From Panopea generosa (taxonomy: Eukaryota > Mollusca > Bivalvia > Adapedonta > Hiatellidae), in contig CM055899.1 in the NCBI GenBank assembly GCA_029582155.1, positions 85,158,056 through 85,222,055 on the forward strand: a stretch of 64,000 nucleotides of DNA. Reading direction: 5' to 3'. Position numbers and translations under genes: made by a program. Of the stretch, positions 52,401 to 58,400 are shown piece after piece (positions within the stretch are counted from its first letter, which is position 1; the number at the start of each line of letters is the position of its first letter). A model generated the notes under the pieces. It was given only the letters and a program-made list of their open reading frames with translations. It was not told where the DNA came from and did no database searches.

Positions 52401-55400
52401 CCAGATATAGACAGTCTTCCAGCTGGTGACCTCACTGAGATCGGTGAGAAGGTAAGATACTTGTGGTTTGGTATTAAAGGAATACACAGTATTTCTGCAG
52501 CCCCTTATTTAAGTTCTGTTTGGGAAAGGGATGTAACTCTGGTAAATGATTGAAACACATGTTTTTTTTTTTAATATTTCTGTGTATCCTTGACAAAACA
52601 GCAAATTATTATAATTGCATCACTTTTTATGCACCCGTTTGAGTGTGTTTGACAACACTTTAAGTCTTGAGATTCCATTCTAGTCTTTAACTTTGTCATA
52701 CATGTATGGATATAAAAACAGTTGGGTCAGTTAATCAACATGACATGACGTGTCACGCGTAAAATCCAGAGCAAAGGTCAAGGTCACACATTCAGTCTGT
52801 TTGAGATTTTATCTAACCTGTTACTTTGTTACACATGATTGATTTAAAGAACACATGGCTTAATTGATCATTATGTCATACATTAGAACTGTACCTAAAA
52901 GGTCAGTCACACTTTTAGTCTGTTTGGTTTTTTCTGTATGATCTGTAATTTTGTCTAACATGGAGGGATTTTACAACAAGTGATAAACATTGTCACATGC
53001 ACTACTCAGCTCAGGTCTGTACATCAGATGTCAAGGTCAAGGTCACACAAAGGTCAAGGAGTTGTCTGTATATTTGACTTTCTTATCAGCACTTCTCCTA
53101 GACTTTTGAACTGATTTAAGCCAAACTTGTATGAAGTCTAGTTGTGCATATTGTTTTGTTATGGCCCATTTATTAATATAAACACCAATCTTGTTTATAA
53201 CTTGTTTATACCTTGTCTATACCTTGTTTATATATCTTGTTTATACATTGTTTATACCTTGTTTATACCTTGTCTAAACCTTGTTTATAACTTGTTTATA
53301 CCTTGTTTATACTTTGTTTATATCTTGTCTATACCTTGTTTATACCTTGTTTGTATCTTGTTTATATCTTGTTTATACCTTGTTTATCCTTGTTTATACC
53401 TTGTTTATATCTGGTTTATACCTTGTTTATATTTTGTTTATACATTGTTTAAACCTTGTCTATACCTTTTTTATACCTTGTCTATACCTTGTTTATATCT
53501 TGTCTACCTTGTCTATACCTTTTTTATACCTTGTCTATACCTTGTTTATATCTTGTCTACATCTATACCTTGTCTATACCTTGTCTAAACCTTGTTTATA
53601 CCTTGTCTATAAATTTATATCTTGTTTATATCTTGTTTATATCTTGTTTATACCTTGTCTATACTTTGTCTATATCTTGTCTAAACCTTGTTTATACCTT
53701 GTCTATAAAATTATACCTTGTTTATATCTTGTTTATACCTTGTTTATACATTGTTTATACTGTGTTTATACATTGTTTATATCTTGTCTATATCTTGTCT
53801 ATACCTTGTCTATATCTTGTGTATACCTTGTTTATACCCTGTTTATGCATTGTCTAAACCTTGTTTATACCTTGTTTATACCTTGTCTATACCTTATCTA
53901 TACCTTGTTTATACATTGTCTATACCTTGTTTATACATTGTCTTTACCTTGTTTATACATTGTTTATACCTTGTGTATACATTGTTTATATCTTGTTTAT
54001 ACCTTGTTTATCCATTGTTTAAACCTTGTTTATATCTTGTTTATACCTTGTCTATACATTGTCTATACCTTGTCTATACCTTGTCTATAGCTTGTTTATG
54101 CCTTGTTCATACTTTGTCTATACCTTGTTTATACCTTGTTTATACCTTGTTTAATGCTTGTTTATGCATTGTCTATACCTTGTCTACACCTTGTTTTTAC
54201 ATTGTTTATACCTTGTTTATATATTGTCTATACATTGTTTATACATTGTTTAAACCTTTATTTTTACCTTGTAAACAATGTTTATACAATGTTTATACCT
54301 TGTCTATACTTTGTTTATACATTGTTTATTCCTGGTTTATACCATGTTTATACATTGTCTATTGTTCATACCTTGTCTATCTGTGTTTATACTTTGTTTA
54401 TACCTTGTTTATATCTTGTTTATGCATTGTCTATACATTGTTTATACCTTGTTTATACTTTGTTTTTATCTTGTTTATAGCTTGTTTATAGCTTGTTTAT
54501 AGCTTGTTTATGCATTGTCTATACCTTGTCTATTAGTGTTTATATCTTGTTTATTGTCTGTTTATATCTTGTTTATACCTTGTTTATACCTTGTTTCAGG
54601 GCATTAATCTCAGCGGAGGTCAGAAACAGAGAGTCAGTATTGCCAGAGCTCTATATTCTTCTGCAAGCACATATATACTGGTATGTATACTTTAGTAACA
54701 CATATATACTGGTATGTATACTTTAGTAACATATATATACTGGTATGTATACTTTAGTTACACATATATACTGGTATGTATACTTTAGAAACACATATAT
54801 ACTGGTCTGTATACTTTAGTAAAGCTTTTGCTCTGGTATGTATACTTTAGTAACACATATATACTGGTATGTATACTTTAGTAACTCATATATACTGGTC
54901 TGTATACTTTAGTAAAGCTATTGTACTGGTATGCATACTTTAGTAACACATATATACTGGTATGTATACTTTAGCAACACATATATACTGGTATGTATAC
55001 TTTAGTTACTCATATATACTGGTATGTATACTTTAGTTACTCATATATACTGGTATGTATACTTTAGTAACTCATATATACTGGTATGTATACTTTAGTA
55101 ACACATATATACTGGTATGTATACTTAAGTAACTCATATATACTGGTATGTATACTTTAGTAAAGCTTTTGCTCTGGTATGTATACTTTAGTAACACAGA
55201 TGTACTGGTATGTATACTTTAGTAAAGCTATTGTACTGGTATGTTTACTTCAGTTACTCATATATACTGGTATGTATACTTTAGTAAAGCTATTGTACTG
55301 GTATGTATACTTTAGTTACTCATATATACTGGTATGTATACTTTAGTTACTCATATATACTGGTATGAATACTTAAGTAACTCATATGTACTGGTATGTA

Positions 55401-58400
55401 AACTTAGGTAAAGCTATTGTACTGGTATGTACACTTTAATAAAGCTATTGTACTGGTATGTACACTTTAGTAACTCATATGTGCTGGTATGTAAACTTTG
55501 GTAACCTAAATATTTGAAATCTGGTAAGCGGACTCTAGTTTTTACATAGGAATGGTATGGGAAACTGAAAAATCCATTTAAAGCATTACCTTTTCATAGT
55601 AAGTAACTTTTTATACAGTAAGAGTGGGGGATATTAAGATCTCTCCAAAATAGTTGTATATTTTTAAATTTAAAAAAAAAAATGTGACCACTGAGTCGTT
55701 ACAATGTTTCCGGGGCCCTTTTGGGTCTCTTGTTACAGTATTTAGTATGATCTTATTGGGGAACGAACCCACAAACCTAAACTCTGCCATATGTGAGGCA
55801 GACATTGTAAAATTTGCAAGAGAAACTACCAGCATGTTGTGATGATTATAAATACATGTGTTTAATCCCCAGGACGATCCCTTGTCAGCCCTAGATGCTC
55901 ATGTGGGTAGACATGTGTTTGAGGAAGTGATCGTAAAGAAACTTCTCCGGCGTAAGAAGACCGTGATCCTTGTCACACATCAGCTACAATACCTTAACTA
56001 CGCCAACAGTGTCAGTATACAGGAAGTACTCTTGTTGCTTAGTAAATTATTATTAAAGTATTTTAAGTTCAGGTACATAGTTTACTCCTGTTGGCTTTGA
56101 TTCACCTGTTTGTGGTGTTTATGTTGTTACTCCTGTTGGCTTTGTTTCACCTGTTTGTGTTGTTACTCCTGTTGGCTTTGTTTCACCTGTTTGTGTTGTT
56201 TATGTTGTTACTCCTGTTGGCTTTGTTTCACCTGTTTGTGTTGTTTATGTATATATATAATCCAATACACTTTTGTGCAAGTTGTCATCCTATTTTAGAT
56301 AGAATTCACTGTATTGTGTTTTTTTTTAACAAACACTAATATTAATGTATAATAATAAACTTATTCTTTCTATCACCTTTAGTTAACTCTCATAATGTGT
56401 AACTACCTACATCAAAGCCACTACACTTATATACTGAACAGAACAGCTAACATGCCATCTCACATTTTATGTACCCGAATTTGGAATTATGACTTGAATA
56501 AGAAATAACATTCATGAAATCAATACATTTTTTGTCTACCGGGCCCAATTAGAACAGTCGAGAATGCGTCTGACTCTTGATCCAAGGGTTGTGAGTTCTA
56601 ATCCCTGCCCGGCAACAGTCTCCTTGATGATTGATATATGACATTGTGTTTCATTATCATTCGGCGCTCACCACTGATTCAAGTGGGAAAGTTATCAGTT
56701 ACTTGTGGAGATGGGGTGTGCACCAGTACTGGTTAACCTTTCAGGATCCCGGTAAACAGTGGTTAGGTTAACTGATCGTCTGTTAGCCCTAGATGGCATA
56801 AAAATTATGCTAAATATTCAATCAATCATTTTTGCCTGCTAATGTTGTATATAAACTTAAAATAAAGCTACTCAATAGTTTTATGAAGATATTTAAAATA
56901 CAAAAGTAGCAGATTAGCTGTACCGTTCAGTATAGATATGTGCTTTACATTTCAGATCCTGGTAATGAAGGAAGGGGAAATAGAGTATCAGGGAAAATTG
57001 TCCGAAGTAAAAAAAACTCATCCAGAACTTTATGAATCCTGGAGAAAGGCTTTAAAAGATGCAAAATCTGCAGAAGCCAGCAGGTATTTCATTGATTAAT
57101 GTTTCTGAATGTTAATTATGTTACCACTATCAAATTGCAAAATATAAACCTGGTAGAATGGATGTTTTACTGACTTGTCCCCAGTAATGATGTATTATTG
57201 GAACTGTTGTGATTTTCAAACGGTACTAAACTAGTGATTGGTTATAATCAGAATGGTTTCCATGTATTTGCTCTTAAACTATGCTCATAAGAGTGTATTT
57301 GTGTGTAACCATTCTTAAATTGATATTCTGAATTAGTAATGTAGGTAAGTGAGAGCTGGTGGTGGTGGATGTAGGGTCCAGGTTAACTTGTTATAGGCCC
57401 CCATCTCCACAAGTAATTGATAACTTTCCCATTTGAATCCACTGTGAGAGACAATTGATTATGAGTCACAATGTCATATATCAATCATCACAGAGACTGT
57501 TGCTAGGCTGGGATTCAAACTCGTGACCCTGGAATTGATAATCAGATGCTGGTCAGTGTGTTTTTCAGTATTTCAGTTATTTAACGGTGATAAATGTACC
57601 TAATCATCATTCTTGGGGTCCAAAGAGACTGTGTACAAGCTGTGATTTGAAATCATGACACATGGATTGACAATCAAGACATGTTTTTATCTTTAAATAT
57701 TTTATTTCTCATTATACACATACATATAAATATTATGTACATAGCAACTAATTGTCCAAAACATAATAGAAGAAGAAGATAAGTGTGAACTATTCTACTA
57801 TACTGACATTCAGATTATTTTGATATAGTCTAACAATTCAAGACATGTTATTGACTAAGCTGGCTGGGCACAATCTAGTCAGTATAATATTCAATGATAT
57901 TTCGGTAGATTGAGTTATTTTTCATCATTTCAGTCGTAAAAATTCCGACTGTAGAATGGATGGCACTATTGATCATCTACCAAACAGACAGACCAGTGTA
58001 CACAGTCAAATATCAGTAGATGAGACACATTCCCCCAGAGAAACAAATGGAAAGGTCTGTTACTTGTTTTAATTTTATTTATTTTACATTGATTGCAAAA
58101 CATGTTCTTAAAACGTATACAAATAACACTATAAGTCTTCCTGGGTAGAACCAGTACTAAGCAGATGCAGATTGCAGCTCTTACACTGGACCACGTGTTC
58201 CACGGTCTGTTGCATGAACCATGAAGACAGACAATTTGAAACATTCTCATACATGTTTTTCTATCAATAGGTACCCCTTTTATGATGTACCTTTTCTAAA
58301 CTACTAGAGAAAAAATGTAAATATTATAAGAAAATCAAATCTTTAATTACAACAGGATAATAAATATCATGCATGTATGATTTGAATATCACATACATGT

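Follow-up and report, generated by a model that had tools for sequence, protein, structure and literature searches.

We analysed a 64,000-nucleotide stretch of the genome of the bivalve Panopea generosa (contig CM055899.1, positions 85,158,056 to 85,222,055; hereafter the window), in which a gene predicted to encode a sulfonylurea receptor (SUR) carries, at the very start of its intron 16, a tandem array of a 31-bp unit whose first copy spans the end of exon 16 and its presumed splice donor. The array starts at an exon end, its first unit holds the predicted real donor and the donor motif recurs in the later units, a layout that, judged by its sequence, is of the kind known from human ABCA7 and IFI6. 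We consider it probable that this is a donor-anchored intronic minisatellite, tolerated since the first donor wins. An earlier description of this locus (the original prediction) had recognized the array and had proposed that the choice among its donors would switch between a full receptor and a truncated product.

Exon 1 of the gene (6852-7421), which corresponds to TMD0, matched 10 distinct PDB sequences at E values up to 0.001; because all of them are ABCC8 or ABCC9 (best 6.2e-34), the gene is by homology a sulfonylurea receptor (ABCC8/9). Taken by itself, the NBD1 piece is not diagnostic, its best match being MRP1 (8.1e-29) with ABCC8 at 3.2e-25. Exon 16 is bordered by TTTCAG/GGC and ACTG/GTATGT and exon 17 begins at the acceptor CCCCAG/GAC (slashes mark the presumed junctions). 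The joined peptide of both exons aligns with ABCC transporters through NBD1, and we take exon 16 to carry the LSGGQ signature and exon 17 to extend from the Walker B Asp to the H-loop. Skipping of exon 17 would keep the frame, the joint between exons 16 and 18 being open. Being 81 nt long and flanked by introns of 2148 nt (upstream) and 1192 nt (downstream), exon 16 fits exon definition.

The array measures 838 bp and holds, as had been predicted, about 27 units that begin with the exon end and its donor (27.0 copies with 85% matches in Tandem Repeats Finder, TRF). Unit 1 is made of the final 13 nt of exon 16 (54668-54680, CACATATATACTG) and the first 18 nt of intron 16, and the distance from one CTG/GT to the next is exactly 31 bp in all 26 spacings. 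The predicted row of near-identical donors is thus present, CTG/GT being found in 27/27 units; the full GTATGT, which had been attributed to nearly all of them, occurs in 23, the remaining four having GTCTGT (twice), GTATGC and GTATGA. CTTTAG, an acceptor-like motif said to be part of each unit, is confined to 21/27, unit 19 having CTTCAG. Units 1, 2 and 7 have the same sequence over all 31 nt, seven units (6, 9, 17, 19, 21, 25 and 26) have their exonic half in a second form, and units farther towards the 3' side diverge more from unit 1 (Spearman 0.53, p 0.005; n = 26 units, which are not independent of each other). A decayed 28th unit with CTG/GTAAGC (donor 55524) follows unit 27 after a spacing of 37 nt. 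Within the 1.47-Gb genome, the 18-nt core of the unit had 24 matches with at most one mismatch, 22 of them at the SUR locus, so that it is practically confined to this place in the genome.

Table 1. Features of the SUR gene around the 31-bp array (positions in the window).
Feature	Position	Strand	Remarks
Exon 16 (numbering of the original prediction)	54600..54680	+	81 nt, phase 0 at 3' end, 27 residues, NBD1 signature region
Presumed real donor GTATGT, in repeat unit 1	54681..54686	+	sequence and protein homology
31-bp tandem array, 27 units; unit 1 overlaps the last 13 nt of exon 16	54668..55505	+	
In-frame TAG, reached by any downstream donor or intron retention	54693..54695	+	
Decayed unit 28, CTG/GTAAGC (donor 55524)	55521..55551	+	approximate 3' limit
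Intron 16, 1192 nt, mostly array	54681..55872	+	
Exon 17, 138 nt, 46 codons	55873..56010	+	phase 0 at both ends
11-bp array (CTTGTTTATAC, 128.6 copies) that stops 3 nt short of exon 16	53190..54596	+	TRF

Donor 54681 gives the normal reading, whereas all 26 later donors give one identical truncated end, as their use adds GTATGTATACTTTAG and an early stop; this agrees with the immediate in-frame stop foreseen by the original prediction. Its placement of the truncation between the LSGGQ and the Walker B Asp also holds, if these motifs are, as we presume, correctly named. The end is the same for every later donor because its stop codon falls within the 18 intronic nt of unit 1, and retention of intron 16 leads to it as well. 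This implies that the number of units can alter only the frequency with which splicing passes over the first donor and not the protein end, and that the choice among later donors carries no protein information. The predicted pairing energy with U1 is -7.9 kcal/mol in 18 of the 27 units, including the first, so that the first donor is distinguishable mainly by its position; it ranges from -4.2 to -6.9 in the other nine. For comparison, it reaches -8.0 in the decayed unit 28 and spans -4.4 to -10.7 over nine firmly placed donors of the SUR gene. The U1 5' end used for these energies is the vertebrate consensus and may differ from that of this species.

The history that we favour would have begun with the tandem duplication of the segment across the exon-16/intron-16 border (13 exonic and 18 intronic nt), followed by expansion of the duplicate through slippage or unequal exchange. 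Since a tandem duplication across a donor would always leave an intact copy of exon end and donor on the 5' side, and since splicing under exon definition would take the donor nearest the upstream acceptor, the extra donors would be cheap and the array could persist. Later donors would be used rarely, each such event yielding a truncated protein or mRNA decay. Two sets of published data are consistent with this first-donor dominance. Under exon definition, the upstream donor was favoured among near-equal ones, and five minigenes with identical strong donors and flanking introns of 365 nt were spliced exclusively from the upstream donor (PMC9225289). In human ABCA7, intron 18 carries a variable number tandem repeat (VNTR) of a 25-bp unit present in about 12 to 427 units, the first GT of which is the donor of exon 18; use of the second donor, which retains one unit and causes a frameshift with a premature stop, amounts to 2 +/- 1% irrespective of array length (PMC5954066). 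By the ABCA7 parallel, in-frame skipping of exon 17 would be a likelier effect than the use of later donors if the 838-bp SUR array acts at all.

An array at an exon border does not seem to require any special origin in this window. Arrays of at least three copies and a period of at least 7 occupy 19,459 of the 64,000 bases (about 30%) in 25 merged blocks. They are built of many different units and lie largely in the introns of one gene. In a sample of 14 donors and 10 acceptors that we placed ourselves, covering part of the gene's exons, one donor and one acceptor lie within 15 nt of an array, compared with 4.4 and 3.2 expected from circular shifts of the arrays; a count as low as that observed, or lower, occurred in a fraction of 0.038 of the shifts for donors, 0.109 for acceptors and 0.028 for both together. 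Contact between arrays and borders is thus rarer than chance, which is as expected if most such events were removed. We had considered a preference of arrays for exon borders, the reverse of what the window contains. We had also considered a genome-wide enrichment of donor motifs in arrays, and the triplet counts, which score matches and not arrays, give no consistent excess: GGTAWGT triplets number 26,169 vs 31,500 for the reversed control, and AAGGTAAGT triplets 516 vs 339. Around 22 other ABC-transporter loci (L024-L041, L043-L046), no array of the same definition touches the matched stretch, exact exon ends not being fixed for each locus; the nearest, in L036, starts 38 bp away from the match on its acceptor side.

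Several points weigh against a tolerated array with a dominant first donor. The exon-16 donor and the junctions are predictions from sequence and protein homology. Departures from the unit consensus affect 4/162 cells of the donor hexamer, 20/324 of the other intronic part and 60/351 of the exonic part (plain counts), and so few changes in the hexamer could hint at constraint instead of neglect. The advantage of upstream donors is itself limited, the upstream site being favoured in only 60% of natural near-equal pairs, the stronger site dominating in 86% of all events, and larger minigene exons being skipped when identical donors are weak (PMC9225289). Moreover, this upstream-donor rule and both precedents are human, and splicing may differ in this animal. 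Finally, the sample of borders is small, and four of the 14 donors (21120, 46165, 57082, 63433) and two of the 10 acceptor positions (9539, 46005) do not fall exactly at GT or AG; the contact count nevertheless stands because all six inexact positions are at least 162 nt away from the nearest array.

Donor-anchored arrays apparently recur elsewhere in this genome. Among the matches to the GGTAWGT triplet, the first 100 places on the list form 12 clusters, all on the same contig (C1). Seven of them have a readable and scorable array start (L063, L064, L076-L079 and L082), and five count neither way, either because a larger array precedes or contains the scored segment (L047-L049) or because the array start was not reached (L080 and L081). 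Among these matches, a probable exon donor stands at the array start in three of the seven scored clusters (L064, L076 and L077), an exon call that combines an open frame, splice signals and a codon score whose training set was 2003 codons from SUR and ABC exons of this genome. The 81 nt upstream of these three arrays are open, and only 0.7-1.3% of intron segments score as high; the scores of the other four upstream segments are reached by 39-63% of intron segments, and for SUR exon 16, which served as yardstick and belongs to the training set, the figure is 1.3%. Three in seven is not a genome-wide rate, since selection by donor motif enriches anchored arrays; less biased samples give 1/14 among the SUR donors and 0/22 among the other ABC loci.

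The three arrays differ in what their later donors would produce. In L064 (G000:C1, minus strand, 1456-1904 of the locus), a 30-bp array with 14 GTATGT sites starts from the probable donor of an exon ending in SRVLVDK-G/GTATGT; splicing from its second donor would insert 10 extra codons and keep the frame, much as in IFI6, whereas from the third donor on the frame is shifted by a 37-bp unit; no stop precedes 13 of the 14 sites found downstream. In L076 (G000:C1, 1305-2854), an array of a 38-bp unit that includes 18 exonic nt starts within a probable exon end (YYRNKIVDHKK/GTATTT) and provides 23 donor-like sites, all 22 later ones lying behind a stop. The first donor of this array, GTATTT, has a predicted U1 pairing of -5.7 compared with -8.4 for the next, GTATGT, and the locus thereby constitutes a natural test of donor position vs strength. 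The 43-bp array of L077 (G000:C1:10245500-10251500, 2321-3261; 21.9 copies, about 27 exonic nt per unit, 21 AGGTATGT sites) takes its start within a probable coding exon (MASEQSIEK...DTTITA) whose donor it includes, and all 20 later sites again follow a stop. Its divergence from unit 1 grows with distance (Spearman 0.47, p 0.035), and the 1.8 kb downstream (3279-5062) contain exon-derived copies devoid of GGTAWGT, with 46 positions matching at least 18 of 26 nt vs a mean of 0.04 in 50 shuffles. None of the three anchored exons had a Pfam or PDB match; the L076 exon may resemble SEL1L3. Separately, the 36-bp array of L081 (G000:C1:8663300-8663960) is open in one frame over most of the 661 bases covered, repeats a 12-residue peptide (VRSSHNSDSQER-like) and may be coding. 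We regard it as a tentative and rather unlikely extension that tandem expansion across exon-donor borders is frequent and has affected many genes, including SUR, producing a natural series of genes in which 14 to 27 donors compete and differences in copy number between individuals adjust exon skipping or leakage.

The alternative that fares best is an effect of array length on exon 17, and even this we find doubtful. As in ABCA7, array length would set the skipping of exon 17, which has 138 nt, phase 0 at both ends and an open skip product, yielding a receptor without the Walker B region of NBD1. In ABCA7, in-frame skipping of the exon after the VNTR, within NBD1, increases with array length and is 3.2-fold higher for alleles of 5399 + 4575 bp than for those of 557 + 315 bp (PMC5954066). 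However, the SUR array, at 838 bp, is of about the size of the 837-bp ABCA7 allele, a small wild-type comparator, and the effect there came from kilobase-long alleles (PMC5954066).

The switch of the original prediction, in which splicing factors would shift use to later donors so that a truncated SUR or mRNA decay tunes the supply of ATP-sensitive potassium (KATP) channels, is improbable. It would gain from the immediate stop after 26/26 later donors and from the conservation of CTG/GT and of the hexamer across the units. Nevertheless, such a switch would need no more than a single later donor, which leaves 27 unexplained, intron retention yields the same product, and the arrays at other probable exons have different reading outcomes. 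The equal U1 pairing in 18/27 units, the upstream-only minigenes, the roughly 2% use of the second ABCA7 donor whatever the array length and the single end shared by all later donors argue in the same direction, and we found no support for donor choice as a switch.

An origin of intron 16 itself by tandem duplication at the exon-16/17 site is very unlikely. Genome matches to the joined exon-16/17 peptide, the gene's own two exons excluded, continue across the junction in 22/22 cases (4/22 with stop codons), which means that the ABC-transporter sequences concerned lack an intron there. This absence from other ABC genes is no guide to the intron's age among SUR genes. Intron gain of this type takes both splice sites from the duplicated segment, and here the acceptor CCCCAG/G and the last ~350 nt of intron 16 are not repeat copies. 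Least credible of all is an assembly artefact that expanded or misplaced the array beside the exon, given that its units mix variants and diverge at the 3' end, that 838 bp would be short if long reads were used and that three more probable anchored arrays with other units exist.

Exon 16 thus sits between two arrays, the 31-bp array downstream and an unrelated 11-bp array upstream. The latter ends 3 nt before the exon, so that the pyrimidine-rich stretch in front of the exon-16 acceptor consists of its last copies, and about the last 60 nt before that acceptor contain no AG. Within the 31-bp array, unit 24 (55394-55413) has CTTAG/GTAAAG, which resembles a zero-length recursive-splice site, probably by chance. 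We rejected the reading of the 31-bp unit as a dispersed element: four matches elsewhere reach 78-81% identity over ~75-80 bp, and the three places inspected are AT-rich arrays of other units. Another array with a 31-bp period (L010, G000:C10:4534500-4543000, 3720-4452) has a unit (TAACATATAATACTG...) that resembles part of the SUR unit, possibly an AT-rich chance likeness.

The value of the SUR locus is comparative, as it repeats the ABCA7/IFI6 layout in an ABC-transporter gene of another animal. This genome seems to hold several such loci that differ in unit length, donor strength and reading outcome, so that RNA from one animal could test together the choice of the first donor by position, the case of a weaker first donor (the 38-bp array on C1) and an association of long arrays with skipping of the next exon. 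In addition, gene-prediction software may pick wrong donors at such exons. Our literature search, judged by titles and abstract openings, found no paper on such arrays in molluscs.

Human IFI6 (6-16, G1P3) has a minisatellite that supplies multiple donors, downstream units being used and three mRNA species produced (PMC4526556). The SUR array resembles ABCA7 most closely: both lie directly after an exon, with the first GT as real donor (predicted here), in an ABC transporter at NBD1, and in both the loss of the following exon would preserve the frame. They differ in family (ABCA there, ABCC here) and in unit, which starts at GT in ABCA7 and includes 13 exonic nt in SUR; ABCA7 is also documented by RNA and population data, whereas the SUR array is known from the sequence of one assembly. 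The likeness to IFI6 lies in a minisatellite offering multiple splice donors. We take the IFI6 unit to be 12 bp, so that its later donors would keep the frame; by contrast, all later donors of SUR lead to a stop. Finally, intron gain by tandem duplication also draws its splice signals from a duplication across an exon-intron border, with the difference that a single duplication makes a new intron there, whereas in SUR a donor would have been amplified within its own intron.

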